Shown here: in pieces, positions 23,034 to 57,595 of the stretch
Position numbering within the stretch: the first letter of the stretch is position 1
How the letters are laid out: the number at the start of each line of letters is the position of its first letter
Assembly: GCA_005862285.1 (NCBI GenBank)
Contig: SZXW01000010.1
Span: 372,001-436,000, forward strand
Length of the DNA: 64,000 bases
Reading direction: 5' to 3'
Origin: Chlorobium sp.
GTDB lineage: Bacteria > Bacteroidota > Chlorobiia > Chlorobiales > Chlorobiaceae
Program-made: the position numbers and the translations under genes
The notes under the pieces: generated by a model
Seen by the model: only the letters and a program-made list of their open reading frames with translations
Database searches by the model: none
Told to the model about the DNA's origin: nothing

Positions 23034-23395
23034 CTTGATTGAAGCTCATCCAACCAATATGTGACATATCGGTAACAAAGAATGTCAGAATAATATTGCA
23101 GGAAAATCAGACAGGGTTGGAGATTCTATTTGAGCGTTCCAGTTTTTTAGGCTAAAATCCTGTTCTCCTGACATAATTTCAAGTAGACGACAATGTATTC
23201 CATGTGAATTAAATCGAATGATTTTAAGATAATTTCTACGATTTGCAGGCATCACGTCTTGTTTATGTTCAAATATCAATTTATAAAGCACTTCTTACAT
23301 AGCCTCTTCATCCCCCATTTTCAAGCTTTTTTGTTAAAACTTTGCAAACAATTCCATATCTGCTTTACAACTCTAAAATGTTCGTAAAAAAAAAA

Positions 23396-23422: not shown

Positions 23423-23587
23423 GGCACTATTTTTAAAATACTTAGTAGTGTTTATTCTTTTTTTTACAACTGCTTTGATTCCACACAATAAGCGTTTAAA
23501 TCTATTGTTTATCAAACAGAATCACCCCTTACGGCAATATTTATTTAGTATCTATAATTATTGAGACAGGGATTAAAATTAGACATT

Positions 23588-24283
23588 ATGTCACTACCAA
23601 TGATACTCGTTGTTGAAGACGACCTGAATCTTGCAAATCTACTTGTTTATAACCTTGAACGTGCCGGTATTAACTGCGCTGTTTCCGTTTCAGGAGAAGA
23701 TGCTCTAAATCAACTCCCAAGAAAAAGTTTCGATCTTGTCCTCCTGGATATCATGCTTCCTGGAATTGATGGATTCGAAGTATGCCGACAAATCCGACAG
23801 CATCAGATATACAGGGAGATGCCGATTATTATGCTGACAGCCAAAGGAGAAGAAATCGATCGTATCCTCGGGTTTGAACTCGGCATTGATGACTATGTTG
23901 TCAAACCATATAGCCCTCGTGAACTCATACTTAGAATAAGAGCAGTTTTAAAACGCGACCGGCGTTCTGGCAGCAAAATACAAAACACACTCAAGAGTAA
24001 TGGTATAGATATTGATTTGACATGCCATAAGGTCACTCTTGATGGTAAAGAGCTTATATTGACGATGATGGAATTCAAGCTGCTTGTAACTTTTTTAAAA
24101 AGAAAAGATCAGGCCCTTTCTCGAGAAGTACTTCTCAGCGATGTTTGGGAAACAGATACAAATATAAATACCAGAACCATCGATACACACATTACAAGGT
24201 TACGTGATAAACTCGGTGAAAAAGGAGAAATGATAAAAACGATACGCGGGATCGGCTATAAACTTCAAGGATCAATCGAGTAA
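23588..24283 (+). CDS. OmpR/PhoB-type response regulator, probable PhoB/PhoP orthologue
   Basis: Two-domain DNA-binding regulator of 231 residues. The receiver has the acidic pair at residues 10-12, phospho-acceptor Asp54 in LVLLDIMLPGIDG, MLTAKGEE, and the switch Lys in DDYVVKPYSPREL. The C-terminal winged helix ends in TRTIDTHITRLRDKLGEKGEMIKTIRGIGYKL. The ATG at 23588 is preferred over an in-frame TTG at 23561, which would add nine atypical residues. The wording of the receiver is PhoB-like, and the phosphate genes at 32-47 kb make a Pho role plausible. Its expected kinase partner is cut off just downstream. Confidence 0.88.
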   Translation: MSLPMILVVEDDLNLANLLVYNLERAGINCAVSVSGEDALNQLPRKSFDLVLLDIMLPGIDGFEVCRQIRQHQIYREMPIIMLTAKGEEIDRILGFELGIDDYVVKPYSPRELILRIRAVLKRDRRSGSKIQNTLKSNGIDIDLTCHKVTLDGKELILTMMEFKLLVTFLKRKDQALSREVLLSDVWETDTNINTRTIDTHITRLRDKLGEKGEMIKTIRGIGYKLQGSIE

Positions 24284-25551: not shown

Positions 25552-27834
25552 TTAGTTGACGGGGGATTGTCCAAGTTCACGTACGGCATTTTGCAAGGAC
25601 ATCGCGTCGAGATCCTCGATCCTGAGGCTGAGGAACAGCTGGATACGATGAGAAATCTGCATCAGCGAGTCGTGAAATGCCTTGTGCTTCTGCTCCTTCG
25701 AGCCCTGGACTGCGACCGGGTCAGGAAAACCCCAATGCGCCGTGATAGGCTGACCTGGCCATGCTGGACAGGCTTCGCCTGCTGCCTTGTCGCACACCGT
25801 GAAAATGAAGTCCATCTTTGGTGCGTCCGGTCCGGCGAATTCATCCCAGCTCTTGCTCCGCAGACCCTTGACACCATAACCCAGACTTTCGAGCAACTCG
25901 AGCGCCATCGGATCGACCTCGCCTCGCGGATGACTGCCGGCACTGAACGCCTTGAACCGGACATTGCCAAGACGGTTCAGGACAGACTCGGCAATGATGC
26001 TCCGGGCTGAGTTACCGGTGCAGATGAAAAGTGCGTTATAGGTTTTATTTTCCATGTCAGAATGTTTTACGTTCGATTGAGATAGTGCAAGCAATTGGGT
26101 TATGCCGATTGGCTCCAGCTTAAGCAACGGAACGACGGCATATCGTCTGGAGTACCGGGTGGCTATGCGGTCGATTTCCCGACGCTCATTCAACTCACGC
26201 TGCTTCAGCAAGGGCGAGTGCAGCGCGCCTGATGCGACGGCGTTGTTGACTACCCATGCCCATGGCTCGATGCCTGCTCGACGAAGCTCCTCCTGGAGAG
26301 CGGCCGCCTCCAGCACGGGTGTGGGTTCTGCAAGGGTGACAATCAGCACTTTGGTCTGCCGTGGGTCCTGCAACTGCATCATCGGAGTGATTTCAATCAA
26401 GCCGGAAGCGCCTGCCTGTCGGGTGATTTCGCGGTGATAGGCCCCGGTGGCATCGAGCAGCAGAAGCGTATGACCGGTCGGAGCAGTATCCATGACGACG
26501 AATTTCCGGTCTGCCTCACGGATGATTTTCGAGAACGCCTGAAATACGGCGATCTCCTCTGTACACGGCGAGCGCAGGTCCTCTTCCAGAAGCGCCCGGC
26601 CTTCTGCATCGAGATGGGCGCCTTTGGTTTCAAGTACGAGCTGTCGATAACGTTCCGTTTCTTCGTGAGGATCGATCCTGCTGACCATGAGGTTGTCCAT
26701 CTTACCCTCAATAGTATCGGAAAGGTGCGCCGCCGGATCGGAGGTGGAGAGATGTACCGGCAGGCCGCGCAGGGCAAGTTCGACGGCGAAAGCAGCCGCA
26801 AGAGTGGTTTTGCCGACCCCGCCTTTACCCATGAACATAATGAGGCCATGACCATCACCGGCAATATCATCGACCAGCGAAGAAAGTGCCAGGGCGGCCT
26901 GTGATGAAGTGGGGATTTCAATGCAGAGCTCCGAAGTCGCAGCAACGTCGTTATTCAGCAGCTGGTGAAGTGCGTCGAGACCGACAAGATTGAACGGCTT
27001 GAGTGACACCATATCGCGAGGCAGTAATTGCAGCGTTACCGGAATGGCAGCCAATGCCGCCTGTTCACGTTCGAAGATGGCCGCTGCCAGATCGTCCTGC
27101 TCCGCTTCGGCCGATGGCATAACACCGTTGATGACAAGGTATTGCTGTAAGAGCCCGACTGCAGCAAGTTCTTCATGGGTCCGGGCGACCTCCCGCAGCG
27201 TGGACTTCTGGGCACGGGCAACCAGAACAAGGCGGGTCTGCCTCGGGTCTGAGAGGGCCTCGACGGCCTCTTTGTATTGTGTCCGTTGCTTCTCAAGCCC
27301 TGAAAGTGGCCCGAGGCATGAAGCATCGCCCTTCGAGGTTTCAAGAAAACCGCTCCATGCACCCGGCAGCTGCAAAAGGCGGATGGTATGCCCCGTGGGC
27401 GCCGTGTCGAAAACAATATGGTCGTAGAAAGCGGTCAATTCCGTATCGGTAAGAAGAGCGGTGAACTCGTCAAAGGCGGCGATCTCCGTCGTGCATGCAC
27501 CGGAAAGCTGTTCCTCGATGTTCTTGACTACCGCATCAGGCAGCACACCCCGCACGGGACCGACAATTCGGTCACGATAAGCCCTGGCCGCAGCCTGAGG
27601 ATCGATCTCGAGCGCGAAAAGGTTTGGCGAAGTGTTTGTCAGGGCTTTAATCCGATTGCCAATGGCCACGCCGAATACCTGCCCCACATTCGAGGCGGGG
27701 TCGGTGCTGACCAGCAGTACGCGCCGTCCTTCCTCCGAGAGCTGCAGAGCTGTTGCGCAGGCAATAGAGGTCTTTCCCACGCCACCCTTGCCGGTGAAGA
27801 AGAGATAGCGCGGGGGAGTAATAAGAAACTTCAT
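25552..27834 (-). CDS. arsA: ArsA arsenite ATPase fused to ArsC arsenate reductase
   Basis: A single open frame of 760 residues. Residues 1 to about 593 are a full two-half ArsA: P-loop 1 FFTGKGGVGKTS (13-23), signature DTAPTGHTIRLLQLPGAW, second P-loop MGKGGVGKTTLAAA and DTAPTGHTLLLLDATGAY. The three As(III)-binding cysteines of E. coli ArsA are kept in SGACTTEIA, ASCLGPLSG and RSPCTEEIA. After the short linker QSNVKHSD, residues 594-760 are a complete ArsC of the low-molecular-weight phosphatase type (FICTGNSARS, later VCDKAAGEAC). The internal ArsC ATG (26055) has no evident ribosome-binding site, so the fusion is probably translated as one protein that could reduce arsenate and energise export. 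The start at 27834 matches ArsA; the frame is open to 27918. Confidence 0.94.
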   Translation of the reverse strand: MKFLITPPRYLFFTGKGGVGKTSIACATALQLSEEGRRVLLVSTDPASNVGQVFGVAIGNRIKALTNTSPNLFALEIDPQAAARAYRDRIVGPVRGVLPDAVVKNIEEQLSGACTTEIAAFDEFTALLTDTELTAFYDHIVFDTAPTGHTIRLLQLPGAWSGFLETSKGDASCLGPLSGLEKQRTQYKEAVEALSDPRQTRLVLVARAQKSTLREVARTHEELAAVGLLQQYLVINGVMPSAEAEQDDLAAAIFEREQAALAAIPVTLQLLPRDMVSLKPFNLVGLDALHQLLNNDVAATSELCIEIPTSSQAALALSSLVDDIAGDGHGLIMFMGKGGVGKTTLAAAFAVELALRGLPVHLSTSDPAAHLSDTIEGKMDNLMVSRIDPHEETERYRQLVLETKGAHLDAEGRALLEEDLRSPCTEEIAVFQAFSKIIREADRKFVVMDTAPTGHTLLLLDATGAYHREITRQAGASGLIEITPMMQLQDPRQTKVLIVTLAEPTPVLEAAALQEELRRAGIEPWAWVVNNAVASGALHSPLLKQRELNERREIDRIATRYSRRYAVVPLLKLEPIGITQLLALSQSNVKHSDMENKTYNALFICTGNSARSIIAESVLNRLGNVRFKAFSAGSHPRGEVDPMALELLESLGYGVKGLRSKSWDEFAGPDAPKMDFIFTVCDKAAGEACPAWPGQPITAHWGFPDPVAVQGSKEQKHKAFHDSLMQISHRIQLFLSLRIEDLDAMSLQNAVRELGQSPVN

Positions 27835-27848
27835 TTTTTCAATCCCGT

Positions 27849-28205
27849 TCAGCAGCAGCTCTTTCCTGAACAGCAGCTTTGCGGTTTCGGAGCTGCCGAC
27901 AGAGAGATTCCCGACCATCGGGCAAGATCCGCACGGGATGGGTAAAGTCCGGCCATGGCGATGTCTCCGCCGACGAGGGTAAGGGGCAGTGATTCCTGGC
28001 CGGAACGCTCGAGGAACTCCCTGACGGTCGCGTTTTCGGCAAAGGCCATCGGTTGCTGAGCGAGATTGACCCGCTCCACCGGAACGCCGTTCTGCCTGGC
28101 CCAGTTCACGTCAGCTGTGAAGGTGACGAGGGTCTGGTCAACGTCCACACCGCAAACGCCAGTGCTGCAGCAGAGAGCCGGTTCAAATATCTGTATGGTT
28201 TTCAT
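27849..28205 (-). CDS. arsD: ArsD arsenic metallochaperone/trans-acting repressor
   Basis: Hands As(III) to ArsA and weakly represses the operon. The 118-residue protein begins MKTIQIFEPALCCSTGVCG, with Cys12, Cys13 and Cys18 at exactly the positions of E. coli ArsD. It also keeps the two C-terminal vicinal pairs (Cys111-112 and Cys117-118, in QSCCSGKSCC), which many short ArsD proteins lack. The frame is open 20 codons further upstream, but the ATG at 28205 fits the family. It ends 14 bp before arsA, as expected for a chaperone/ATPase pair. Confidence 0.95.
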   Translation of the reverse strand: MKTIQIFEPALCCSTGVCGVDVDQTLVTFTADVNWARQNGVPVERVNLAQQPMAFAENATVREFLERSGQESLPLTLVGGDIAMAGLYPSRADLARWSGISLSAAPKPQSCCSGKSCC

Positions 28206-33578: not shown

Positions 33579-34745
33579 TTAGAACTTCACAACAGCATCG
33601 ACCTGAAGCTGATGCAGCGTCTGGTTTTTATCCGAAGGAGTTTTGTCAATATTGTTATATAAGAAGTACCTGGCTCCAAGGGTCATGTTCTGGACAAGAT
33701 GATAGTATAACCCGACTTCAAAGCCTTTAACGTTGACTATACTATAGTTGGTGCCCGTCGTGGCAAGTTTTCTGTCAGAATCGGTAAAGAGAGGGAAAAC
33801 CGAATCCGATTCGATATAGTCATACATTGCGTCGAGCATCCACTGGCCGACCTGCTTTGCATCGCCTATCGTCAAACCTGCAAGCCATGCCTGCCGCCTG
33901 TTTTCTTTCATCACGGAAGTCAGACCAGTATTGAATGCATACTGACCGTAAATGCTCCATGGCAAGGTCTCAGTGATCTGTCCACCAATATTGCCGAACA
34001 GTTCGACTATTCTGTATTCTTTGTCCTTAACACGAGGATCCGTAACGGTAAATCCGGTTCCGGTTCCTGACTTGTCGGCATTTATATCAGTGCAGATGTT
34101 ATTGACGCTTGAGTAAGAATTCCAGCCGGCACCGAGCATATACCTGATATCATTGACTTCTCCTTTGTATGCGCCCTGTGCTATGAACAAAGCTGGATCT
34201 GTTCTCGTAGCCGAAGACCATGAATTGAGCAAATAGTAGCCGGCAATGGCTATAGGCCCGTTCTTTTCTTTACCGTCAGCATCTTTTCCATACTGAAGGG
34301 TTGCACCTTCGAAGGTAAGATCGGGATCGTAAACCAGGTTTTTGACCCTGATAATTTCAGCGGAGCAGTCTCTCTTACCCAGAACCAGGTTAACCTGTCC
34401 GTCAAGGAACATCGGATGGTAATCAACGAACGCTTCGTTCAGATAAATATTTTTAGGCTGGAAAATACCTCCCTCGGACTGGTTGCGGGATATTGTTTCT
34501 TCAGGTTTATCGTTGCCTGTCGCAAACTGAACACCTGCTGAGAGTTCTTCATTGATCCAGGGATAGACACCAAGGCGCACACGGGTACGTGAACGGCTTG
34601 AACTGAAAGTATCTGTGTTATCCTTCAATGTCCGTTGGTCTTCCCAACGTTCGCGCACATCGCCTTTCCAGTTCCAGTCAACAGCCTGGGCATTGTTGAA
34701 TCCAAGTGCTGCGGCAAGACCGACAAGCAGGGAAATTTTTTTCAT
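33579..34745 (-). CDS. Outer-membrane beta-barrel porin, probably phosphate-related
   Basis: Protein of 388 residues with a signal peptide (cut after NNAQA) and alternating amphipathic strands ending in a C-terminal Phe (LQVDAVVKF), the outer-membrane barrel signature. Stretches such as RTRVRLGVYPWINEELSAGVQFATG resemble the putative porin family of Chlorobi/Bacteroidetes. Its own promoter carries a Pho-box-like array (34837-34876) and pstS follows, so a role in bringing phosphate or phosphate esters across the outer membrane is inferred by analogy with PhoE/OprP. Specificity is not visible. Confidence 0.8.
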   Translation of the reverse strand: MKKISLLVGLAAALGFNNAQAVDWNWKGDVRERWEDQRTLKDNTDTFSSSRSRTRVRLGVYPWINEELSAGVQFATGNDKPEETISRNQSEGGIFQPKNIYLNEAFVDYHPMFLDGQVNLVLGKRDCSAEIIRVKNLVYDPDLTFEGATLQYGKDADGKEKNGPIAIAGYYLLNSWSSATRTDPALFIAQGAYKGEVNDIRYMLGAGWNSYSSVNNICTDINADKSGTGTGFTVTDPRVKDKEYRIVELFGNIGGQITETLPWSIYGQYAFNTGLTSVMKENRRQAWLAGLTIGDAKQVGQWMLDAMYDYIESDSVFPLFTDSDRKLATTGTNYSIVNVKGFEVGLYYHLVQNMTLGARYFLYNNIDKTPSDKNQTLHQLQVDAVVKF

Positions 34746-34836
34746 AATTCAAATAGTTGTTTTTTTGGTGTGTGTTTTTCTGTCAAATCAAAAGTTCTCA
34801 ACTCATTATTAAGTGCACATAAACATACGATTAGTA

Positions 34837-34876
34837 GTGTTAAGGAACTGTTACGGGATTGTTACGATATTGAAAA
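34837..34876 (-). promoter_or_regulatory. Pho-box-like array upstream of the porin gene
   Basis: On the plus strand, heptamers GTGTTAA, CTGTTAC, TTGTTAC and (weaker) TTGAAAA begin at 34837, 34848, 34859 and 34870, exactly 11 bp apart with 4-bp linkers. Read along the gene strand the motif is GTAACAA-N4-GTAACAG, similar to the TTAACA repeats of Bacillus PhoP boxes and the 7+4 geometry of PhoB boxes. It lies 92-131 bp before the porin start. Confidence 0.75.
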
Positions 34877-34900
34877 CAATTAAGCATCATCCCTGAGTGC

Positions 34901-35161
34901 TTATTTTTTCGGCTCTGAAATGACAACGACGCCGTGAAAATGCTTTTCAGGAATAACTATGCGTCCTTTGGAATTGATCACGAGATGAGGGTAGCCTGAC
35001 TTATGAAGCAAATGCATTAGTTTGATCAGCTCTTTTTTTCCTGCAGGTTTGATAATGACATCCGCAACAGCGTCAACTTTTTTGACACCATGTTTTTTCA
35101 ATTCCTCCCGAAGAAAAAATTCCCCTTTGATTTCAGCTCTCAGTTCTTCAAGATGCAGCAT
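34901..35161 (-). CDS. Small protein resembling half of a MurB-type FAD subdomain
   Basis: Protein of 86 residues with a good ribosome-binding site (GGGGGG, 7 nt before the ATG). Residues about 28-85 (VDAVADVIIKPAGKKELIKL, then MHLLHKSGYPHLVINSKGRI, then HFHGVVVIS) read like the first alpha/beta subdomain of MurB and other FAD_binding_4 proteins, but the second subdomain and substrate domain are missing. It could be a remnant or a small regulatory or scaffold protein. It sits between the porin promoter and the GNAT gene. Confidence 0.55.
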   Translation of the reverse strand: MLHLEELRAEIKGEFFLREELKKHGVKKVDAVADVIIKPAGKKELIKLMHLLHKSGYPHLVINSKGRIVIPEKHFHGVVVISEPKK

Positions 35162-35231
35162 GGCAGTCCCCCCGCATTAAATGTGTCATTTGTCAACCGC
35201 CTGTAAGTAAACTTGTCAGATCAAGTAACCG

Positions 35232-35894
35232 TCAAGAAATCGTTGTATTCGGAAGTCCGGACTTCCGTTCAAAAATTCCATGCAAGCCATAGATCAACTC
35301 CTGATAAATCCTGCTCCTGCTATCCTTTACACGACTGTAGAGTTTCAGGATATCGAGAGTGAGAATAATGCGGGTTGAAGAACAGTTAAGCTCTCCGAGC
35401 AAGTGTGTCCCGATGATTTCAAAGCCAAGTACACGCGTATGAAAATTCAAAGGGGAATGCTTCTCTCCCTCAAACACGTCCGTAATGAAATGGGTATAAT
35501 CACGATCAATGACCTCTGCGACAGCAGCTCTCATAAGATGCAGGGCTACTTTGTGGTTTCTGCGAAACTTTTCGAGAATCATGAACCTGCCGATTTCCAC
35601 ATAACGCCCTGTTTTTTTCAGTGTTTCAATTTCAATTCCAGGCATCAGCCTAACTTCGTACTCTGCTGGAATATCCAGAGCGGGATCATACTGAAGACGA
35701 AGCAATCCGGCCGGATTACCGTTCACTTTAGCCATAAACCATGAATACACTCTGTTTTCTGAAACATCTTCCGGAATTTGATTGTTAACCGAACTGATCC
35801 AGTTTTTTTCGATACAGAACACCTGATTGATAATGTCAAGAGCGGCATCACGATCAGCGGTATTTACAACTTTGGATACTGTTATGCTGGACAT
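35232..35894 (-). CDS. GNAT-fold acyltransferase, FeeM/autoinducer-synthase-like
   Basis: Protein of 220 residues starting at the ATG at 35894, which follows an AAGGAG site by 6 nt; the frame is open to 35975 but lacks such a site. GNAT-like features are YVEIGRFMILEKFRRNHKV (core strand plus basic pyrophosphate-binding turn) and NFHTRVLGFEIIGTHL (C-terminal strand). The layout resembles N-acyl amino acid synthases (FeeM) and acyl-homoserine-lactone synthases, which transfer acyl chains from ACP. It lies 34 bp downstream of the PlsC-type gene and shares its Pho-box promoter. An OlsB-like role in an aminolipid is a hypothesis. Confidence 0.65.
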   Translation of the reverse strand: MSSITVSKVVNTADRDAALDIINQVFCIEKNWISSVNNQIPEDVSENRVYSWFMAKVNGNPAGLLRLQYDPALDIPAEYEVRLMPGIEIETLKKTGRYVEIGRFMILEKFRRNHKVALHLMRAAVAEVIDRDYTHFITDVFEGEKHSPLNFHTRVLGFEIIGTHLLGELNCSSTRIILTLDILKLYSRVKDSRSRIYQELIYGLHGIFERKSGLPNTTIS

Positions 35895-35928
35895 AGTCGC
35901 TCCTTTTATGGGTTTAAATGAGAAAGCT

Positions 35929-36702
35929 TTAACATGGACACGGATGGCTGTATTGTTTGCCTGATAAAACCGCAAGAGATATCATGATTTCATGGGTCAC
36001 ATTTTCAGCGATTCTGCTCAACTGCTTACGGTCACTATTCGAAGCAACCGATCCCGATATGATCTCTCGATAAGTTTCAGATTCTTTCCTGAATGAAAGT
36101 GGACAGCCGATCCTGACGGTCATTCTTCCTATCACAGGAATTTTATTCCTTTTCTTTTTAGTCTTGAAATCAATGCCTACAGGAATAACAGGAACGCCTG
36201 TACGCAAGGCTATATGAGCGACTCCAGGTTTTCCCTTCAGCAGCATCTCAGGATGTTTATTACGCTTGCCTTCCGGGAATATGCCGATACTGTTACCGGC
36301 AAGTACTTTTCTGGTGCATTGTTCTATAACATTATCTTGAGTAGCCTTTTGTTTCTTTCCTACTATCCACGGTATATTTGTTCTCTTGTTGTAAACATAA
36401 ACAGGATCGATCATATCCATGATCTGACCAATGATGGGTATTTTGCCGTACATCCAGTCTATAACAAAACTGATTCTGCGCCCTCCCTGATGATAAATGA
36501 TGAGTGCTGGTACCATGAGAGCTTCTAACGAATTGTTGTGGTTGAAAGCATAAATCAGGGTACCATTATTTTCAAATAGATGTTCAATGCCGTAAGTTTC
36601 TGTCAACAAAAAGTTTGGAAGCATGAAAAGACGTAACAACAAAGCTTTGCCCTCAGTTAAAAAGGGAAGAGGTTTGAAAAAATAACCATAATCTTTTTTC
36701 AT
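35929..36702 (-). CDS. PlsC-type acyltransferase with HX4E active site
   Basis: Protein of 257 residues of the 1-acylglycerol-3-phosphate acyltransferase superfamily. The acceptor motif FPEG is intact (residues 142-145, GIFPEGKRN), and PGVAHIALRTGVPVIPVGI is typical block IV. The catalytic HX4D box reads HNNSLE (His55 to Glu60), so the conserved Asp is replaced by Glu. It heads a two-gene unit with the GNAT gene and has the best Pho-box array of the window upstream. By analogy with OlsA it may acylate a lyso-aminolipid instead of lysophosphatidate; this is inference. Confidence 0.78.
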   Translation of the reverse strand: MKKDYGYFFKPLPFLTEGKALLLRLFMLPNFLLTETYGIEHLFENNGTLIYAFNHNNSLEALMVPALIIYHQGGRRISFVIDWMYGKIPIIGQIMDMIDPVYVYNKRTNIPWIVGKKQKATQDNVIEQCTRKVLAGNSIGIFPEGKRNKHPEMLLKGKPGVAHIALRTGVPVIPVGIDFKTKKKRNKIPVIGRMTVRIGCPLSFRKESETYREIISGSVASNSDRKQLSRIAENVTHEIMISLAVLSGKQYSHPCPC

Positions 36703-36773
36703 AAGATTTTTCCTTTTAGCGCTCCTCTACTTTCTCAGAACCCTTAATCGTATAACTATAATAAAAGGATATA

Positions 36774-36813
36774 TTGTTACTGAATGATGACAATCTTGTG
36801 ACGATTGTGTAAA
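36774..36813 (-). promoter_or_regulatory. Pho-box-like array upstream of the PlsC-type gene
   Basis: On the plus strand, heptamers TTGTTAC, TGATGAC, TTGTGAC and GTGTAAA begin at 36774, 36785, 36796 and 36807, each 11 bp apart with linkers TGAA, AATC, GATT. It lies 72-111 bp before the start codon, and a plausible -10 (TATTAT) follows on the gene strand. Confidence 0.75.
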
Positions 36814-36870
36814 ATCTTTCATGTAGCAGTTATTATCAGCAGAGTATTATAAAGGCGGTTATTAAGGCCT

Positions 36871-37944
36871 TCAGGAAAGAAGATGCAGACGGGAAAAAAC
36901 ATAATCGAGAGAATCCTCATTCAGAACAATTCTTGAAATATCAGTCGATTCAAGAACAATAGGACGATTATTTCTCTCACTTTTAAATCTCGGGCTCTGT
37001 TTACCATCATACCAATAGACAAGCTTTATAACTCCTGAATCAATTTCAAGAGCCGTAATTCCACGTTTTCCTATCGTACAGCCAGAATTGAAAACACTCG
37101 GGATGGTAATTTCATTGTATACACTTGTTCTTATTCCATTTCTTTTCGATTTACTTATACAGGCGCAGAGTTCGCTTTTCAGTTCATCAATAGTTTCTTT
37201 GATCGATAGCCGTTCTTCTTCATCAAGCTCAGGGTATGTCCTGCAAAGTGCTTCTATTCTGAATTTAAGATAATCAACTTTTGATAATGATTCAAATAAA
37301 GGCCTATGGGTATGACCAATAACTGATATGATTTTAAAACGGTTTGAAAATTCATAAATAGCCTTTTCGATAACATACTTTTTTCTGCTGTTGTAAGCGA
37401 CTGAAAAGTTTTTTATTCCGATCGGCTTGGCAAAATAGCGAAGAATAAATACTATAGCATCATTTAAAAATGAATATTTTTTCCACAAATAAGTTGATAC
37501 TTGATGACCATGAAAAACCAGTATTGTTTCATTTCCATATTTCAGCTTGACTGATTCAACCAATGATGCTGAAAAAGGATATTTTTCATTATTGAACAAT
37601 ATCGCATCATGATTACCATATGTTTTCAGGAAAAAACCATTCTCTTGAAATTTCAGAAATAAATCAAACATATCTTGCCACCTGGCAGAAATACTTTCTA
37701 ATGAAAATTTGTAAAGCTCCTCAATATCACCATTAAGTAACAGGCTATATTTTTGATTAAAATAATAATTATCAAGAATATTTTTTACTAACTCTGCATT
37801 TTGCCTGAACTCATCATTTCTTCCGCCATTACCCATATGCAAATCACTAAGAATCACAATCTTTGATGAGTTATCAATATTTATCGTTACGGCATCTTGC
37901 ATTACTTTTCGCAAAAGGCAATGTCTATTATTATGAATCAACAT
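36871..37944 (-). CDS. Calcineurin-like metallophosphoesterase
   Basis: Protein of 357 residues with every di-metal motif of the family: ILSDLHMG (Asp34, His36), LLNGDIEEL, YGNHDAIL, VFHGHQ and VIGHTHRP, followed by NSGCTIGK. It resembles the UDP-diacylglucosamine hydrolase/PlcP branch that acts on lipid-linked phosphoesters, with an extra helical insert (about residues 230-270). A Pho-box-like pair lies 75-92 bp upstream. Phosphate salvage from phospholipids, as by PlcP in rhizobia, is an attractive but unproven role. Composition is more AT-rich than the neighbours. Confidence 0.8.
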   Translation of the reverse strand: MLIHNNRHCLLRKVMQDAVTINIDNSSKIVILSDLHMGNGGRNDEFRQNAELVKNILDNYYFNQKYSLLLNGDIEELYKFSLESISARWQDMFDLFLKFQENGFFLKTYGNHDAILFNNEKYPFSASLVESVKLKYGNETILVFHGHQVSTYLWKKYSFLNDAIVFILRYFAKPIGIKNFSVAYNSRKKYVIEKAIYEFSNRFKIISVIGHTHRPLFESLSKVDYLKFRIEALCRTYPELDEEERLSIKETIDELKSELCACISKSKRNGIRTSVYNEITIPSVFNSGCTIGKRGITALEIDSGVIKLVYWYDGKQSPRFKSERNNRPIVLESTDISRIVLNEDSLDYVFSRLHLLS

Positions 37945-38018
37945 TTTATATTCATTTCAAATATTGAGTAACTATTTAAATAAATTATTCAAAAAGAAGA
38001 AGACAATACATAGAGTCA

Positions 38019-38036
38019 TTGTTAATTCTTTGTAAA
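38019..38036 (-). promoter_or_regulatory. Pho-box-like pair upstream of the metallophosphoesterase gene
   Basis: Plus-strand heptamers TTGTTAA (38019) and TTGTAAA (38030), 11 bp apart with linker TTCT, in the divergent 353-bp region between the metallophosphoesterase and pstC genes. Orientation relative to the gene is the same as at the other three sites. Apart from this and the pstC box, the region is AT-rich and shows nothing else. Confidence 0.6.
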
Positions 38037-38179
38037 CTTTGAATTATTATTTTCTTTTTTTTATCAACAATATATTACAATCGGCATCCGGCTCCCAACC
38101 TCTAAACATTTAATTATTTAGCCCGCAAGAGACATTCAAATCAATACTCCAATCCATTATTAATACAACAGGATCATTG

Positions 38180-38197
38180 TTTACAAACTTGTAACAA
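38180..38197 (+). promoter_or_regulatory. Pho-box-like pair upstream of pstC
   Basis: On the minus strand TTGTTAC-AAGT-TTGTAAA, i.e. plus-strand TTTACAA (38180) and GTAACAA (38191), 11 bp apart. It lies 101-118 bp before pstC. Because pstC is on the plus strand, the motif again faces the gene in the same sense as at the porin, PlsC and phosphoesterase promoters. Confidence 0.65.
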
Positions 38198-38297
38198 TAG
38201 ACCCATTGCTTCATATGGAGAAAGCTGATAGATTATGTGCACTGAAAATCATATCTATGATAGACTTTAATCATAGCGGCAACCAAAACGAAGAATT

Positions 38298-39461
38298 ATG
38301 GCGGTAGAAGAATCTTTTACAAATCAGCGGTCGACTGCTTTTGTGATCAGTGCCCGGAAACGGGCAATCCAGAAGGTTGGTAAAACATTTGGAGAAGCGC
38401 TGTTGCTTGTTATTGCCTCATTTGTCGCTATTGTCGTGCTCTTTATTTTTTACTTCGTTGCACGGGATGCGGTGCCTTATTTTCAGATCCGGGGGTTCAG
38501 CGAGTTTTTCACCAGCACCGACTGGTACCCCGCCGATGACCCTCCAGCATTCGGAGCTCTCTCCATTATCTATGGCAGTCTAATGGTTACTGTCGGTTCA
38601 GCGCTGCTTGCCGTGCCGATGGGTATCATAGCCGCGATCTGCCTCAGCGATATTCTGCCTTTTTCCATCCGTCAGTATGCAAAGCCGGTCATCGAAATGC
38701 TTGCGGCGATCCCCTCGGTCGCATACGGGTTCTTTGCCCTTGTGGTATTGGCCCCTCTGCTTCAGAACAACGGAGGCAGTATCCTTATGTGGGCGTGGTG
38801 GATCATTGTAGCTCCATTCATGACTCTGGTTGTGGTGGTGACAGCCGATCTCTTCACCTCGCGGATTGCCGACCGGAAAAGCCGGAACCGCTTCAATTAT
38901 GTTTTAACCGCCCTTTTCGGTATCGTGACCATCTTTATACTCTATTTTGTCGGAACTGCTTTGTCGAAACTCCAGATACTCAGCGGCACCAATGCCCTGA
39001 ACGTATCGATAATACTGAGCTTCATGGCATTGCCCACCATCGTGAGCGTTTCGGAAGATGCGCTTCAGGCAGTAGGAAGGGAGCTGCGTGAAGGAAGTTA
39101 CGCTCTTGGCGCAACCAGGGCGGAAACGATTGTCAATGTCCTTCTGCCCGCAGCAAGCAGCGGCATCCTTGCAGCGGTAATACTCGGTGTCATGCGCGCG
39201 CTTGGCGAAACCATGGTAGTGTGGATGGCATCTGGCAATTCGGCGCACATTCCGCAGCCCTGGTTCAATTATCTGGAATCGGTCAGAACGCTGACTGCAA
39301 CCATTGCAGGAGACATGGGCGAAGCTGACCAGGTGACGGGTTCGGCCCGTTACCATGTGCTGTTTGCCATGGGGCTGCTGCTGCTCGTCATCAGTTTTAT
39401 CAGCAATCTCATCAGTGAAAGGATCGTTGTCCGCCAGAGGAAAATATTATCCGGCAACTGA
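38298..39461 (+). CDS. pstC: Phosphate ABC transporter permease PstC
   Basis: Inner-membrane permease of the Pst importer, 387 residues, first of a seven-gene run. The EAA-type loop GRELREGSYALGATRAETIVNVLLPAASSGI and the ALGETM segment are typical. It is some 70 residues longer than usual: the region ADLFTSRIADRKSRNRFNYV followed by a hydrophobic stretch (FGIVTIFILYFVGTAL) is inserted between core helices and may add a membrane helix. Confidence 0.94.
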   Translation: MAVEESFTNQRSTAFVISARKRAIQKVGKTFGEALLLVIASFVAIVVLFIFYFVARDAVPYFQIRGFSEFFTSTDWYPADDPPAFGALSIIYGSLMVTVGSALLAVPMGIIAAICLSDILPFSIRQYAKPVIEMLAAIPSVAYGFFALVVLAPLLQNNGGSILMWAWWIIVAPFMTLVVVVTADLFTSRIADRKSRNRFNYVLTALFGIVTIFILYFVGTALSKLQILSGTNALNVSIILSFMALPTIVSVSEDALQAVGRELREGSYALGATRAETIVNVLLPAASSGILAAVILGVMRALGETMVVWMASGNSAHIPQPWFNYLESVRTLTATIAGDMGEADQVTGSARYHVLFAMGLLLLVISFISNLISERIVVRQRKILSGN

Positions 39462-39511
39462 ACGTTTCGTACCATCAAAACTGTCAGCATCGTTATTTTA
39501 ATGTTACCATC

Positions 39512-40858
39512 ATGAATCTCAGGACCCGGAAATTGCTCGATCGTTCGTTTACCGCCCTCGGTTTCGGTTCTCTTGTCGTCATGGCGCTGGCCCTTCTGGT
39601 TGTCATCGTGCCGATAGCAGTGAAAGGAATCGGGGCTGTCTTTTTTACCGGTACAATCGAACACCGTAAAATGCTTTCGGCTGAATTCCACACAGGCGAT
39701 CCCCGCGAACTGACTTCAGAGGCAGCGGCTTCAGAACGCTACAGGGCAAACATCTATTCGATGCTGTCTGGCTTCGAAGGTGAGCTTGACAGGATGGACC
39801 CGGAGAAAAAAGCCGAATACAAGAACAAATATGGACAGGTGAAAAGTTCTCTCCAGGCGCTGCTTGGACCGTTGCCCGGTGAACCCGCGCCAATGTTGAC
39901 CCGTTTCAAATACGGGCAGACACGATGGGACAAGGCCCAGGAAAAGTTGCATGACCTGCTCTACGAAACAAAGTGGGATACGTCAAATCCCAACGCGATG
40001 TCAACCGAGTATTTTGTCAGGCGTGCCGAGTCTTTCAAGGGCACATCTCTCGAGAAGCTTTTCCCATATGTCGAGCAGAACATTGAGAAGATGATGCTGC
40101 CAAAGTTTACCTTTTATTCGGGATTCATTACGGAAAGCTCCGTCGATTCCCATTTTTTCGGAGGCATCTGGCCTGAAATCCAGGGAACGTTCTTCCTCGC
40201 TTTCGGTGCCATGCTTTTTGCTTTTCCGCTTGGCGTAATCGCTGCCATCTACTTTACTGAATACGCAAAGCCGGGATTTTTCAACAGCATGCTGCGCAGT
40301 GCCAACAGCACGCTTGCAGGAGTGCCGAGTATCGTATTCGGCATGTTCGGTCTCGCATTTTTCATCAATACTTTGAAGGTTTCGGACTCGAAAAGCGTGA
40401 TTGCCGGTTCGCTTACCCTTGCCATAATGATCCTGCCGACCATTATCCGCTCGGCGGAAGAGGCAATCCTCGCCGTTCCCAAAACCTATAAGGAAGCATC
40501 GCTGAGCCTTGGATCCACGAAATGGAACACTATCATCACCGTGATTCTTCCAGCCGCACTGCCCGGTATTCTAACCGGCGGCGTGATCAGTCTCGGCAGG
40601 GCCGCGGGCGAGACGGCGCCGATCATTTTCACCGCTGCGGTGAGTGTAGGTTCGGCGATCGGTCTTGCGGATGTTTTCAATTCACCGACCCCGGCGCTCT
40701 CATGGAATATCTATAACCTCGCCAGTGAACACGAGGCGGCCGGTGAGCTCCGTCATGTCCAGTACGGCATGGTGCTTGCCCTGATAACGGTCGTGCTGCT
40801 GCTGAACCTGTCGGCTATCATTCTGCGGGCACGTATTTCAAAAAAACTTAAAGGCTGA
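39512..40858 (+). CDS. pstA: Phosphate ABC transporter permease PstA with large periplasmic insert
   Basis: Second permease, 448 residues against about 290 for typical PstA. After the first helix ([20 protein letters not shown]) comes a hydrophilic, charged insert of roughly 165 residues ([15 protein letters not shown] through [10 protein letters not shown]) with coiled-coil character. The normal permease core then follows, including [29 protein letters not shown] and [19 protein letters not shown]. The insert lies between helices one and two, so it should face the periplasm and could contact PstS. Confidence 0.93.
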
Positions 40859-40866
40859 CCATAATC

Positions 40867-41721
40867 ATGACAACTGATACACTGGAAACCCCGGAGCTGA
40901 TGTCTGCCCAGAAATCGACGAAGGATATTTACCTGCCTCCGGCAAGAAAGAAAGTTACCGATGGCGGAAAGCCGCATGTCGTTGCAAGAGAGTTTTCAAT
41001 CTATTACGGCGAATTCGAGGCGGTCAAGCGGGTCAACGCTGAAATACCATCAAAGTATGTGACGGCGCTCATCGGTCCGAGCGGATGTGGTAAAAGTACT
41101 TTTCTCCGCTCGATCAACCGGATGAACGATCTCATACCGACTTGTCACACAACCGGAGCATTGCATTTCGACAATGAAGATGTTTACGGCAAGTATACCG
41201 ACGAAGTACTGCTGCGGAAAAAAGTCGGCATGGTGTTCCAGAAGCCAAACCCCTTTCCGAAGTCGATCTTCGACAATATCGCTTATGGGCCTCGTCTTCA
41301 CGGTATAAACGACAGGAAAAAGCTCATGGAGATTGTCGAGCGCAGCCTTCGCAAAGCCGCGCTCTGGGATGAAGTTTGCGACCGCCTGGACAAGAATGCG
41401 CTTGGACTGAGCGGAGGCCAGCAGCAGCGGTTGTGCGTTGCCCGCACGCTTGCGGTCGAGCCGGAAGTGCTGCTGCTCGACGAACCGACTTCGGCTCTCG
41501 ATCCCAAAGCGACGGCCAAGATCGAGGACCTGATCCAGGAACTCCGCGGCAGCTACACCATCATGATCGTTACCCATAACATGCAGCAGGCATCGAGGGT
41601 TTCGGACTACACGATGTTCTTTTACGAAGGGGTGCTTGTCGAACATGCTTCGACGGCCCAGCTTTTTACCAATCCGAAGGATTCGATGACCGAAGACTAC
41701 ATAACTGGAAGATTCAGCTAA
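40867..41721 (+). CDS. pstB: Phosphate ABC transporter ATPase PstB
   Basis: ATPase of the Pst importer, 284 residues, 8 bp after pstA. Walker [11 protein letters not shown]-loop [15 protein letters not shown], signature [13 protein letters not shown], Walker [13 protein letters not shown] and the switch His in IVTHNMQQA are present. An extra N-terminal segment of about 30 residues precedes the ABC core. Confidence 0.97.
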
Positions 41722-41739
41722 CGTAACTATTTCAAAACC

Positions 41740-42435
41740 ATGTCAGAACGCCCTGTTCATGAACTTATCAAAGAACTTTCCATGGTGCTTGTTCAATTAT
41801 CGGACAAAGTGCTGCAGAATTTTTTCGAAGCGATGCATGCCATCAAGCACAAGGATGAACAGATAGCACGAAGGATCAGAATGGCCGATAATGAGATCGA
41901 TAAGGATGAGGTGACCCTCGAAGAGCGCTGCCTTGCCTTTCTTGCATTGCAGCAGCCGGTAGCGAGAGACCTTCGCACGATTGTCACGATCATCAAGATC
42001 AACGATGACCTCGAACGCATCGGTGACCTTGCCGTGCACATCATCGACCGGATGCCTGAAATCAGCACGGAAATGCTGGTATCGCTTGATTTCGAAACCA
42101 TGGGAGTCCATGCAGGGGAGATGGTCAGGAAATCCATCGAGGCATTCGTGCAGAGGGATCGAACTCTTGCTGAAGAGGTCTGTATGCTTGACGAAGCAAT
42201 TGACATGAAACACCGTAAAATATTCAAGCAAGTCACCGAAATGATAAAATTCCAGGGTTCGGAAACCGATGAACTTATCGCTGCCCTGAGTATTTCGCGC
42301 TATATCGAACGGCTGGCCGATCATGCAACCAGAATCGCCCACGAAGTCATCTATCTTGTTACGGGTGAAATTGTCCGTCATAAAGAATGCTCGTATGAAA
42401 GTTTTCTTGATATAACCAATGAAGAGCTTGATTGA
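41740..42435 (+). CDS. phoU: Phosphate transport regulator PhoU
   Basis: All-helical metal-binding regulator of 231 residues that couples Pst activity to the PhoR kinase. It has the two three-helix bundles with the ExxxD-type repeats (DNEIDKDEVTLEERCLAFLALQQPVARDLR in the first; ERLADHATRIAHEVIYLVTGEIVRH in the second). It is 18 bp after pstB. Because the PhoR-like gene at 24.3 kb is truncated, its kinase partner must be elsewhere if it signals. Confidence 0.95.
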   Translation: MSERPVHELIKELSMVLVQLSDKVLQNFFEAMHAIKHKDEQIARRIRMADNEIDKDEVTLEERCLAFLALQQPVARDLRTIVTIIKINDDLERIGDLAVHIIDRMPEISTEMLVSLDFETMGVHAGEMVRKSIEAFVQRDRTLAEEVCMLDEAIDMKHRKIFKQVTEMIKFQGSETDELIAALSISRYIERLADHATRIAHEVIYLVTGEIVRHKECSYESFLDITNEELD

Positions 42436-42476: not shown

Positions 42477-43583
42477 ATGCCTAATAAAAAGAAGAATGTG
42501 ACTTTTGGAGATATAATGGGAATTCTGGATGGAAAAGGCGACATTGACTGCTCTAACAGATCGCTTACTTCTCTTGAAGGGTGTCCGGAAATTGTCTTAG
42601 GCAACTTCAATTGTTCAGGAAATAACCTGACAACACTTGATGGTGCACCAAAGACAATCGAAGGCGATTTTGATTGTTCACACAACCGTCTTATTTCACT
42701 TTCGAGCGGGCCTCAAGAAGTGTACGGTGATTTCGATTGTTCTGACAACAGCATCATATCCCTTAACGGTGTCTCAAAAAAAATAAAAGGCTCTTTCGAT
42801 TGTTCCGATAACAAGTTGACAACACTTGACGGTGCACCTTATAAAATCGGAGGTGATTTTTCCTGTGCCAGCAATAATTTGTCCTCTCTCGAAGGTGCAC
42901 CGAACGAAGTGGGTGATTTCGATTGTTCACACAACCTCCTTACTTCACTTTTAGGCGGACCCCATGAAGTTCATGGTGATTTTGATTGTTGCGATAATCA
43001 GCTCACTTCACTGATTGGCAGTCCTGTATTTGTAAAAGGAGATTTTTTATGTTCAAAAAATCATTTGGAAACACTGAAAAATGGCCCTATAGTGATTCAT
43101 GGAACATATGGTTGCTCATTTAACAAACTTACATCATTAAAAGGAGTACCAAAAGAGATTGAAGGAAACTTTAACTGCTCGCACAATCAACTCGCTTCAC
43201 TGAAAAGCGCACCATATGAAACAGAGAATTTTGATTGCTCACACAATGAGCTCATTTCGCTTGAATATGCACCAAAAAAAGTGAAAGGTGATTTCGATTG
43301 TTCAGACAATCAGCTTGCTTCCCTTAAAGGCTCCCCAAAAAAAATCAAAGGTAATTTCAATTGTTCAGGAAACCGGCTGGATTCGCTTAAAGGAGCGCCA
43401 AGAAAGGTGAAAGGTGATTTCGATTGTTCAAACAATCATATAACAACATTCGAAAGCGCTATAAAAAAAATAGGCGGAAATTTCATTTGTATCGAAAATG
43501 ATGCAACATTAGAAGAGTCTGTTTTTCGTACATCCTGTATCATAAAAGGCAATATTGTCCAGAACGTGGAAGTGTCTCAATAA
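42477..43583 (+). CDS. Cys-containing leucine-rich-like repeat protein
   Basis: Protein of 368 residues made almost entirely of about 16 repeats of 20-21 residues with consensus GDFDCSxNxLxSLxGAPxxVx. Each turn has the LRR-like NxLxSL element plus a nearly invariant Cys, giving a column of cysteines along the solenoid. No signal peptide or membrane segment is seen. It sits in the middle of the pst-ppk operon, 41 bp after phoU and 28 bp before the CHAD gene. Such repeats are known from phage and Bacteroidetes/Chlorobi proteins of unknown role. Here a binding or scaffold function in phosphate metabolism is a guess. Confidence 0.75.
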   Translation: MPNKKKNVTFGDIMGILDGKGDIDCSNRSLTSLEGCPEIVLGNFNCSGNNLTTLDGAPKTIEGDFDCSHNRLISLSSGPQEVYGDFDCSDNSIISLNGVSKKIKGSFDCSDNKLTTLDGAPYKIGGDFSCASNNLSSLEGAPNEVGDFDCSHNLLTSLLGGPHEVHGDFDCCDNQLTSLIGSPVFVKGDFLCSKNHLETLKNGPIVIHGTYGCSFNKLTSLKGVPKEIEGNFNCSHNQLASLKSAPYETENFDCSHNELISLEYAPKKVKGDFDCSDNQLASLKGSPKKIKGNFNCSGNRLDSLKGAPRKVKGDFDCSNNHITTFESAIKKIGGNFICIENDATLEESVFRTSCIIKGNIVQNVEVSQ

Positions 43584-43611
43584 AATTCATCAGCGTAAAG
43601 GTTAATAAGCG

Positions 43612-45189
43612 ATGAGTTTGATTCCAAAAAAAAAGTTTTATAAGATTCAGCATCCTGATTTTCTGAACAATTTTCCAGATAAAATAATACAGGACAACTG
43701 GAAGTTTAAAGAAATCTATACCCGCACTGAACGTCAGGATTTCTACGATACGTTTGAATGGCAGGCATTCGTAAAAGGAATTATCATTGTTAAAAAAAGG
43801 AATGCGCTTTTTTTACTCGACGATAAAACCGGACATACCAGAGCATCTGTTATGTCTCCCGTCAGACAGTCATATTTTTTTTCTGATGATTTTCCTTCAA
43901 ACAAGGTTTGTGAACTCCTAAGTTCATGTACCGATATCAGGGCATTTATCAAACTTGCTTCCTTTGATGTTAAGGTTCAGGCCTTCCATATTTATGACAT
44001 TAATGACGGTAACGAAAAAATAATCGGTATTCTCATAAAAGAATCAATTGAGCATTCAGAAAAACATAAACACAATCCCCCTGTCCATATCATTTCTCTT
44101 CAACCATTCAGAGGATACAAGGAAGAATCAGAAAACATTGAAAATTCCCTGACCGAAAACAGTGAAAAGTTAAAAGCTATTGATTTAAAGAATTTTTTTA
44201 TCGATCTCATGAGTTATGCCGGACTGAATGTCCAGGGCTACTCTTCAAAACTGCATCTGAACCTCGATCCCAATACATCAATTTATGAGAGCGCACAAAA
44301 AGTCCTGAGGTATACCCTCTCTATAATGAGGGTGAATGAAGCCGGAATAAGAAAAAATATCGATACAGAGTTTCTTCATGATTACCGCGTTGCCGTCAGG
44401 AGAACGCGATCGATTCTTAAACAATTGAAGGGAATTTTTGAACCTGAAGCCACCGCATATTTCCTCGATGCGTTCAGGGACATCGGCAGACAAACCAACG
44501 AAATACGTGATAACGACGTATACCTGCTTGACAAGGTGAATTACTGCAATTGTCTGCCGGCATCTTTTCAACCTTCACTTCATGAATTTTTCAATGAAAT
44601 TGCAGCGTCACGCAAAGCTGTTCACAAGGAATTCAGCAGATATCTTGTTTCAGCTGAATACCTTTCATTAATCCGGCAATGGGAAGAATTCATCAATCAA
44701 CCTGTGCCTGAAGATTCTGAAAGGACTCCCAATGCTTCGCATCCGACAAGCTCAATAGCATTAAAAAGCATAAGGAAAGCATGGAAAAAAGTAATCAGGA
44801 ATGGACGTCAAATCAGTCGCGAATCGACAGATGCGGAGTTGCATTCCATCCGCATCGATTGCAAGAAATTACGATATCTACTCGAATTTTTCGCCTCGAT
44901 TTTTCCTCATGACACTATCGATTCTGTTGTAAGCCAACTGAAAAAACTTCAGGATAACCTTGGAAATTTTATCGATGTTTCAATTCAGCTCGATTATCTG
45001 CAACACTATCTTGCATCTATTGAAATCCGCAAGAAAAACAAATTACTGATTGCCTCAATCGGCAGTCTGATTACCATTATTTATCAGAAAAAGGAAAAAG
45101 CCCGTTTCCATTTTCATGAAACCTTCAGAGAGTTTGATAATGATGATACCGAACGGCGCTTCCAGGATCTATTATCGGCCTCTCACTGA
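43612..45189 (+). CDS. CHAD-domain (polyphosphate-binding) protein
   Basis: Protein of 525 residues. The C-terminal part from about residue 205 is a CHAD domain with its conserved basic motifs: FLHDYRVAVRRTRSILKQL, ELHSIRIDCKKLRYLLEFF and QLKKLQDNLGNFIDV. CHAD proteins bind inorganic polyphosphate, which fits the ppk gene 85 bp downstream. The N-terminal 200 residues match no family I recognise; they are not a CYTH domain. It is probably co-transcribed with pst and ppk. Confidence 0.87.
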   Translation: MSLIPKKKFYKIQHPDFLNNFPDKIIQDNWKFKEIYTRTERQDFYDTFEWQAFVKGIIIVKKRNALFLLDDKTGHTRASVMSPVRQSYFFSDDFPSNKVCELLSSCTDIRAFIKLASFDVKVQAFHIYDINDGNEKIIGILIKESIEHSEKHKHNPPVHIISLQPFRGYKEESENIENSLTENSEKLKAIDLKNFFIDLMSYAGLNVQGYSSKLHLNLDPNTSIYESAQKVLRYTLSIMRVNEAGIRKNIDTEFLHDYRVAVRRTRSILKQLKGIFEPEATAYFLDAFRDIGRQTNEIRDNDVYLLDKVNYCNCLPASFQPSLHEFFNEIAASRKAVHKEFSRYLVSAEYLSLIRQWEEFINQPVPEDSERTPNASHPTSSIALKSIRKAWKKVIRNGRQISRESTDAELHSIRIDCKKLRYLLEFFASIFPHDTIDSVVSQLKKLQDNLGNFIDVSIQLDYLQHYLASIEIRKKNKLLIASIGSLITIIYQKKEKARFHFHETFREFDNDDTERRFQDLLSASH

Positions 45190-45274
45190 GATGTAGGCTG
45201 TCTGCAACTCTTTCAAAACACTTCATAAATTATCAAACGATCCTATTTCATTTCATCACTGGTTCAATATTGAT

Positions 45275-47473
45275 ATGCAAGAAAATTTTCAACAGAGTAA
45301 TAACGGGAAAAGTCAATCAATTCCTGACTTTCATAATCCCGGTTATTACGTTAACAGGGAGTTGAGCTGGATATATTTTAATCAGAGAGTTCTTGAAGAG
45401 GCATTCAATTCCAATGCTCATCCCCTGCTTGAACGGGTGAAATTCATATCGATTTTCAGCTCAAATCTTGATGAATATTTCATGATCCGCGTTTCTGGTA
45501 TAGAGGATCAGTTCGAGGCTGGTATTCATGAGAAAACGATTGACGGACGGACACCTGCAGAACAGCTTGACAAGATCAGGGTGATGGTCCTGCAGCAATT
45601 GAAGCAGAGGAACGAGTGTTTTTATAATGATCTACTGCCTGCTTTAAAAAACGAAGGGATCGATTTTGTTCGATTTTCTCTTCTTGACCAAAAACAGCAG
45701 GAAAAACTCAGGAGCTATTTCCGACAATATATTTATCCGGTATTGACACCTTTGGCTTTCGACACCGGTCATCCTTTTCCTTTCGTATCGAATCTTTCGC
45801 TCAATCTTGCAATCGAGCTTGAGGATGAGGAAACACATGCCTTGAAGTTCGCACGTGTGAAAGTTCCCAGTATACTCCCAAGACTTCTCCAACTTGAAAA
45901 AATTGAAGGGTTTGATGTTGTCGGCAACTGTATCAGATTCATATGGCTTGAGGACCTGATTGAAAATAATCTTGATCAGTTGTTTCCTGAAATGCGGATC
46001 ATTAGATCGCATTTGTTCAGACTGATTCGAGATGCAGATATAGAAATAGAGGAAGATGAGGCAGGCGATCTGCTTGAGACAATTGAACACGGCCTCAAGT
46101 CAAGACGTTATGGCAAAGTTGTTCGGCTTGACATCAATCCGGAAATGCCCCTTCATATCAGGGAATTACTGATCAATAACCTTGAAATCAGCAGCAGGAA
46201 TGTTTATGAAATTGATGGGCAGCTGGGGCTCGGTTGTCTGATCGATCTGCTCAAGCTGGACCGGCCCGAACTCAAGGATGACCCATTTGTTCCTGGAAAT
46301 CCCATTGAGAAAAAGTTTGGAAACAATATTTTCAGTGCGATCAGGGCAAAAGATCAGCTTCTTTATCATCCGTATCAGTCGTTTCAGCCGGTTGTCGATT
46401 TTATCAACCAGGCTGCTGTAGATCCCGATGTGCTCTCCATAAAACAGACCCTTTACCGGGTCGGCAGCAATTCACCTATTGTCAAGGCGCTTATCAAAGC
46501 AGCAGATGCCGGAAAACAGGTTGCTGTTCTTGTCGAGCTGAAAGCAAGGTTCGATGAAGAAAACAATATTGTATGGGCCCGTTCTCTGGAAGATGTCGGT
46601 GCTCATGTGGTATATGGTCTTTCCGGACTGAAAACCCATGCCAAACTTACCATGGTTGTTCGCCGCGAACAGCAGAAACTCAGGCGCTATCTTCATCTTG
46701 GAACCGGTAATTACAACCCTGTAACTGCTAAAATCTATACCGATTACAGCGTGTTTACAGCAAATGAAGAATTGGCCAATGATGTTTCTGAACTGTTCAA
46801 TGTTCTGACAGGATATTCAGGGCATTCTGACTATAAAAAACTTATAGTCTCTCCAAATCATACAAGAAAGCAAGTCATCGGCATGATCGAAAGAGAGATT
46901 GAATGGAAACGTAAAGAGGGATTTGGAAGAATTATTATGAAGATGAATGCGCTTGTCGATGCTAAAACCATCCGTGCACTGTATATGGCTTCTCATGAAG
47001 GTGTCCGGATAGACCTGATTGTCCGGGGAATATGCTGCCTGAATCCGGGGATATCAGGAGTAAGTGAAAATATAAATGTGATCAGCATTATTGGACGCTT
47101 TCTTGAACACAGCAGGGCTTATTATTTCAACAACGGCGGGAATGAAGAGTTGTTTCTCGGAAGTGCGGACATCATGCCGAGAAACCTTGATCATCGGGTT
47201 GAAACACTTTTTCCTGTTTTTGATAAAGAACTCATCGATGATATCAAATCCGACCTTGATCTGATTCTGACCGACAATGTAAAGGCATGGATGATGAATC
47301 CCGACGGCACATATTCTAAAATTGAAACTGAAGCTCCGATGGTTGACAGTCAGCTTGCTTTTTTAAAACGATCTTCTATAAAAAAACATGTAAAGCCCGA
47401 GATGAAAAAATCTGACCCGCAAATATCGTTGCAACCTGCTATTATTTCCAAACCGGAAAACCGTATGGAATGA
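45275..47473 (+). CDS. ppk: Polyphosphate kinase 1
   Basis: Makes polyphosphate from ATP, reversibly; 732 residues. Family stretches: [17 protein letters not shown] at the N-terminus, [28 protein letters not shown], the phospho-His region [34 protein letters not shown], and the second active-site region [19 protein letters not shown]. It is the last gene of the run starting at pstC, so polyphosphate storage is apparently co-regulated with phosphate uptake. Confidence 0.97.
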
Positions 47474-57495: not shown

Positions 57496-57595
57496 AAATT
57501 CTGAAGGATATGTTGTATCTGCTTTCAATAGAACAGTATAGTGAAAATGTCACTATTTTTTACAGAAGATGGAGTCATTGCCCCTTTCCGGAAAT

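Follow-up and report, generated by a model that had tools for sequence, protein, structure and literature searches.

Conserved 11-bp repeat arrays as predicted Pho boxes of the Chlorobiaceae

Repeat arrays and the genes behind them

A 64,000-nt stretch of the Chlorobium sp. contig SZXW01000010.1 (positions 372,001 to 436,000 of the forward strand), called the window here, contains four genes or gene units that are preceded by direct heptamer repeats with an 11-bp period, which are predicted to be Pho boxes. The first unit, on the minus strand, begins with a porin gene (PF16930 Porin_5, 33579..34745), followed by pstS (TIGR02136, 32620..33444), which has no box of its own in the window, and by the co-directional methylglyoxal synthase gene mgsA (TIGR00160, 31971..32441), possibly on the same transcript. 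Also on the minus strand are a unit of a PlsC-type acyltransferase gene (PF01553, 35929..36702) and a GNAT acyltransferase gene (35232..35894), and a metallophosphoesterase gene (PF00149, 357 aa, 36871..37944). On the plus strand, pstC-pstA-pstB-phoU (38298..42435) is followed by co-directional leucine-rich-repeat (LRR)-like, CHAD and ppk genes (42477..47473), possibly on the same transcript; judging from the gaps of 42, 29 and 86 bp, ppk may share the pstC promoter.

A preliminary description of this DNA had reported the heptamer at four sites, on the strand opposite to the gene and 72-131 bp before the start codon, and all four sites are present in the sequence with these positions, strands and distances. 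In the sense of the gene, the porin array (34876-34837, minus strand) reads TTTTCAA-tatc-GTAACAA-tccc-GTAACAG-ttcc-TTAACAC and corresponds to two tandem putative Pho boxes; the plsC array (36813-36774, minus strand) reads TTTACAC-aatc-GTCACAA-gatt-GTCATCA-ttca-GTAACAA. The two remaining sites have two units each: TTTACAA-agaa-TTAACAA before the metallophosphoesterase gene (38036-38019, minus strand) and TTTACAA-actt-GTAACAA before pstC (38180-38197, plus strand). At all sites, the 7+4 bp direct repeats have a single orientation relative to the gene, and four less constrained bases separate the units. The consensus is better written as [G/T]T[A/T]ACA[A/C], in two to four units at 11 bp.

The promoters have two layouts: porin and plsC have four heptamers, and at pstC a full -35/-10 promoter is preceded by two. 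In particular, the porin promoter has a putative -10 element TATGTT 9 bp after the last heptamer (34822..34827, minus strand) and no separate -35 box. In about 20/23 porin relatives the element is TAGATT at 8-9 bp, and TATGTT at 9 bp is found in the window and in Chlorobium ferrooxidans (L069). Behind the plsC array, a putative -10 element TATTAT follows at 10 bp (36758..36763, minus strand), and the plsC relatives show no clear conserved -10 element behind their arrays. At pstC, a putative promoter TTGCTT-N17-TAGATT lies 8 bp behind the box (38206..38234, plus strand), and pstC relatives retain its TTG-like and TAGATT elements.

Conservation and significance of the arrays

A matrix built from the ten window heptamers only was applied to orthologue upstream regions in 60-odd Chlorobiaceae loci, which were fetched by PstC similarity. 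Four-unit arrays were significant in 96% of 24 porin upstream regions (23/24) and 83% of 23 plsC upstream regions, and two-unit arrays in 75% of 56 pstC upstream regions, 56% of those of ppk and 36% of those of the metallophosphoesterase gene; control genes in these loci (pstA, pstB, phoU, gnat, and pstS behind porin) yielded 0-12%, most of them 0-5%, with 0-8% for four units at pstA, pstB and gnat. The best unit spacing on these upstream regions was exactly 11 bp, with an echo at 22. In the opposite direction, a 42-bp matrix built from relatives only scored 50.7 at the porin array and 27.2 at the plsC array, compared to a maximum of 14.8 among ten simulated windows; the next-best score in the window (12.3) is an overlapping register of the porin array. 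Further, a relatives-only half-site matrix was applied to single window regions with 400 dinucleotide shuffles, and all four array regions reached the floor of p = 0.0025. By the same matrix, the window upstream regions of pstS, mgsA, ppk, arsR, a second PhoB-like regulator gene (see below), a pentapeptide gene and a small open reading frame (ORF) were not significant, and two were marginal: a PHP gene, at p 0.015, and metK, whose p was 0.020 with four units and 0.50 with two.

A sequence-only profile for the arrays (R1), whose training set included both window arrays and whose E-values are rough, found arrays in 83/86 Chlorobiaceae genomes and in 65/65 of those with at least 90% completeness, versus one weak match among the other genomes of the same order (1/12). 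Many of these genomes are fragmentary metagenome-assembled genomes with shared ancestry, and the counts are thus not independent. The scores of the relatives-only matrix remove the circularity of R1 for the window, and the family result is likewise independent of the window arrays. In nearly all loci, the best R1 match per genome lies directly upstream of porin or plsC. Within the window's own genome, R1 returned the porin array (3.4e-9), the plsC array (1.3e-4), one misoriented weak match (C14 at 61.1 kb, E 0.115, rejected for its wrong orientation and its position behind tmk) and the pstC box (0.35), which indicates that the strong four-unit sites form a small regulon located in this one neighbourhood.

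Overall, conservation upstream of orthologues, which the preliminary description had offered as a check, was observed for porin(-pstS), plsC-GNAT, pstC and, with two units, ppk, but was weak for the metallophosphoesterase gene. The ppk boxes occur in 6-7/9 relatives, in most of those where ppk has its own promoter. The metallophosphoesterase gene had been listed as a fourth regulon member; its box is good in the window by the half-site matrix, but its position is matched only in L069 and L194, with sites elsewhere in L050, L073, L200 and L206, making it a plausible but weak member.

Candidate regulators

The same genome contains a phoB-phoR operon outside of the window (G000:C1, about 294.6-297.1 kb). 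Its PhoB gene, at 296.4 kb, is directly followed by the gene of a 601-aa kinase with Cache, HAMP, PAS, HisKA and HATPase domains, whose best match is PnpS (392 bits, cut-off 400), with 295 bits for PhoR. A second regulator, encoded in the window (23561..24283, plus strand), is 71% identical to the operon PhoB and is an orphan with no kinase gene beside it. TIGR02154 (PhoB) is the best model for both proteins, and because their scores (236.8 for the orphan and 227.2 for the operon PhoB) fall below its NCBIfam cut-off of 296.2, both are called PhoB-like here. The other OmpR-type regulators detected in this genome are much less similar (36% identity and less).

In E. coli PhoB, the residues T194, V197, R201, R203, T217 and R219 contact DNA bases or backbone (PMC3264566). 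When aligned to E. coli PhoB (NP_414933.1), five of these six are conserved (T194, R201, R203, T217 and R219), and the orphan has the same DNA-contact residues as the operon PhoB. V197, a base-contacting residue, is replaced by T, a change that would fit the changed repeat unit. In L044, phoB-phoR lies directly beside pstS. As an observation on the orphan's surroundings, a further site, GTGACAT-atcg-GTAACAA, occurs at 23061, 500 bp from its gene.

Interpretation as Pho boxes and alternatives

The arrays are very probably the Pho boxes of the Chlorobiaceae, that is, sites of a PhoB-like regulator controlling a Pho regulon. A Pho box is defined as a 7+4 bp repeat (PMC4415409), and the sites here have at least two 7-bp direct repeats with a 4-bp gap. 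They lie upstream of pst genes (pstC and porin-pstS in the window, and pstC in most of 56 relatives), the -10 element follows the porin array at a fixed short step, and the genome encodes a PhoB-type regulator and a PhoR-type kinase. The preliminary description had proposed this same reading, and the sites are conserved at porin(-pstS), plsC-GNAT and pstC, and relatives have additional ones at pstS, phoU and ppk. In the proposed mechanism, phosphate shortage would lead PhoR to phosphorylate PhoB, which would bind head-to-tail with one subunit per 11-bp unit, giving two PhoB dimers at porin and plsC and one at pstC. Bound PhoB would then recruit a sigma70-type RNA polymerase, with the array standing in for a -35 box at porin and plsC; at pstC, one dimer would sit upstream of an existing -35/-10 promoter, and a basal level of pstCAB-phoU expression could persist.

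Several observations weigh against the Pho regulon. All OmpR/PhoB-family regulators can bind direct repeats of about 11 bp, and the repeat layout alone therefore cannot name the regulator. Both candidates score below the PhoB model's cut-off and carry T at the base-contacting position 197, and the half-site matrix finds no box upstream of the phoB-phoR operon itself. Moreover, one 1.6-Mb genome (G038, 96% complete) has two arrays with a best E of 5.1e-9, and neither PhoB nor PhoR was detectable in it.

The repeats themselves are real and far above chance. Their chance origin in AT-rich promoter DNA would agree with the genome-wide frequency of the 18-mer GTAACAA-N4-GTAACAA, which is not enriched (19 matches with at most 2 mismatches, compared to 29 for its reversed control); of its single-mismatch matches elsewhere, three (L002-L004) fall at the start of a ribosomal gene, close to a tRNA-like stretch and in DNA where no gene is evident. 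The evidence therefore lies in the multi-unit arrays and their conservation, and not in the word itself. The held-out matrices in both directions and the contrast between family and order contradict a chance origin for porin, plsC and pstC, leaving it a negligible probability, although it persists in part for the metallophosphoesterase box. The scan proposed in the preliminary description, with a two-unit matrix, fails genome-wide because this word is not enriched, whereas the four-unit array works. The arrays could instead serve another OmpR-family regulator that responds to envelope stress, with the pst genes co-regulated for another reason. Repeats of this period occur across the entire OmpR/PhoB family, and envelope genes make up three of the four targets, with porin, PlsC, GNAT and phosphoesterase all touching the envelope. 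However, boxes are conserved at pstC across most of the Chlorobiaceae and, in relatives, also before pstS, phoU and ppk; together with the distance of the genome's other OmpR-type regulators, this makes the explanation very improbable.

The preliminary description had named the regulator at 23.6 kb for a binding assay, and the arrays might be the operators of this orphan, responding to a signal other than or besides phosphate. Its gene lies less than 11 kb from the porin array, its DNA-contact residues are identical to those of the operon PhoB, and in C. ferrooxidans an orphan PhoB-like gene adjoins the ppk and pst region. However, the orphan clade contains only the window, L130, L144, L151 and L152 (support 98/98), and most Chlorobiaceae genomes have a single PhoB, yet the arrays occur throughout the family; the orphan also lacks a kinase gene alongside. 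Control by the orphan in place of the operon PhoB is accordingly unlikely. Since the orphan, unlike the arrays, is not universal, the PhoB-PhoR pair outside of the window is the likelier regulator, and the 23.6-kb protein, probably not the main one, is probably an accessory on the same sites or a subset of them.

Comparison with known Pho systems

In B. subtilis, PhoP boxes consist of TTAACA-like units at about 11 bp. By this description the arrays here are alike, with TTAACA-like units of the same approximate period, and the Gram-positive targets are unlike. Features similar to B. subtilis PhoP boxes are cited in PMC4415409, and M. tuberculosis PhoP also binds 7-bp repeats with a 4-bp spacer (PMC4832192). 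The E. coli PhoB regulon shares the gene-strand direct repeats of 7+4 bp, the -10 element at a fixed short step, the pst targets, the PhoB-PhoR pair and five of the six DNA-contact residues; its box replaces the -35 element, which the porin promoter here also lacks as a separate box. It differs in its unit (CTGTCAT versus GTAACA-like), in V197 versus T, and in the residues G185 and D192 of the RNA-polymerase-contact loop (PMC3348028). Unlike in E. coli, the pst genes are split into porin-pstS and pstCAB-phoU units, and plsC-GNAT is a predicted target. The unit [G/T]T[A/T]ACA[A/C] retains T, C and A at the positions where the E. coli (CTGTCAT) and B. subtilis (TTAACA) units both have them. The sites of cyanobacterial SphR also have at least three tandem repeats with an 11-bp period (8 bp and a 3-bp linker) and a TTAAC-like core, and its predicted targets include porins and transporters (PMC1906773); in contrast, its unit is CTTAACCT, it belongs to a different phylum, and in the Chlorobiaceae the porin and plsC arrays have four units as a rule.

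The type of switch is thus familiar, and its DNA signature and some of its targets appear to be undescribed in green sulfur bacteria. No described Pho box for this phylum was found in targeted searches of the open-access literature, and a literature search that included RegPrecise entries yielded nothing directly relevant. Strain KB01 grows on nanomolar phosphate, and an earlier discussion of its pst genes as a pho regulon included no cis-element (PMC6616575). Green sulfur bacteria serve as models of photosynthesis in early oceans that were rich in iron and poor in phosphorus. With a box common to the family, the regulon can be predicted in every genome; the box also corrects the regulator candidate and suggests that a porin and a lipid-acylation unit take part in the phosphate economy.

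The plsC-GNAT unit

The plsC-GNAT pair is an unusual predicted Pho target and may function in lipid remodelling. The pair is conserved, with genes that usually overlap by a few bases. In phosphate-controlled ornithine-lipid synthesis by OlsB-OlsA, an N-acyltransferase-like gene is similarly adjacent to a PlsC-type PF01553 gene (PMC11631085), and here too a PlsC-like O-acyltransferase (PF01553) adjoins the GNAT. However, the GNAT has no match to PF13444, the family that defines OlsB, but only to PF00583 (E up to 1), and its identification as OlsB was rejected for this reason. It weakly matches an exosortase-associated acyltransferase model (TIGR03694), and its predicted structure, a model of moderate quality (pLDDT 63.5), has a GNAT fold with the N-acyl amino acid synthase FeeM among many matches. 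Tentatively, the pair, driven by its four-unit array, might make a phosphorus-free acyl-amino-acid or amino lipid during phosphate limitation, using enzymes unrelated to OlsB at the family level; with weak GNAT matches and a moderate model, this is offered as a hypothesis and not as a result. If true, the pathway would remodel the membrane in a manner so far undescribed in this phylum.

Additional array-bearing genes and neighbouring observations

In relatives, more arrays precede pstS, a phoU paralogue, cold-shock genes, arsenate-reductase-like genes and a membrane-protein gene divergent from phoB. In particular, two successive arrays lie before a 70-aa cold-shock protein gene near a PhoB-like gene (L194:2242-2428 and L195:1977-2157), with mgsA nearby in L195. 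The mgsA gene, directly behind pstS in the window, is near array-bearing promoters in L195 and L200. Arrays before an arsenate-reductase-like gene near phoB (L198:1397-1438, L202:3517-3555 and L207:2188-2226) suggest that arsenate detoxification is tied to phosphate starvation.

Within the window, a single 788-aa ORF (25552-27918) combines two ArsA ATPase domains with a C-terminal low-molecular-weight phosphatase (arsenate-reductase-like) domain; it belongs to an ars block, with genes for an ACR3-type transporter, ArsD, ArsC and ArsR, that separates the orphan regulator gene from the pst genes. The LRR-like gene between phoU and the CHAD-domain gene (42477-43583) encodes a 368-aa repeat protein without a clear Pfam family, with the leucine-rich-like pattern SLxGxPxxVxGDFDCSxNxLTSL. 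Further, a 1397-aa histidine kinase with many PAS-like repeats (57596-61789) is followed by an OmpR-type regulator (56764-57528).

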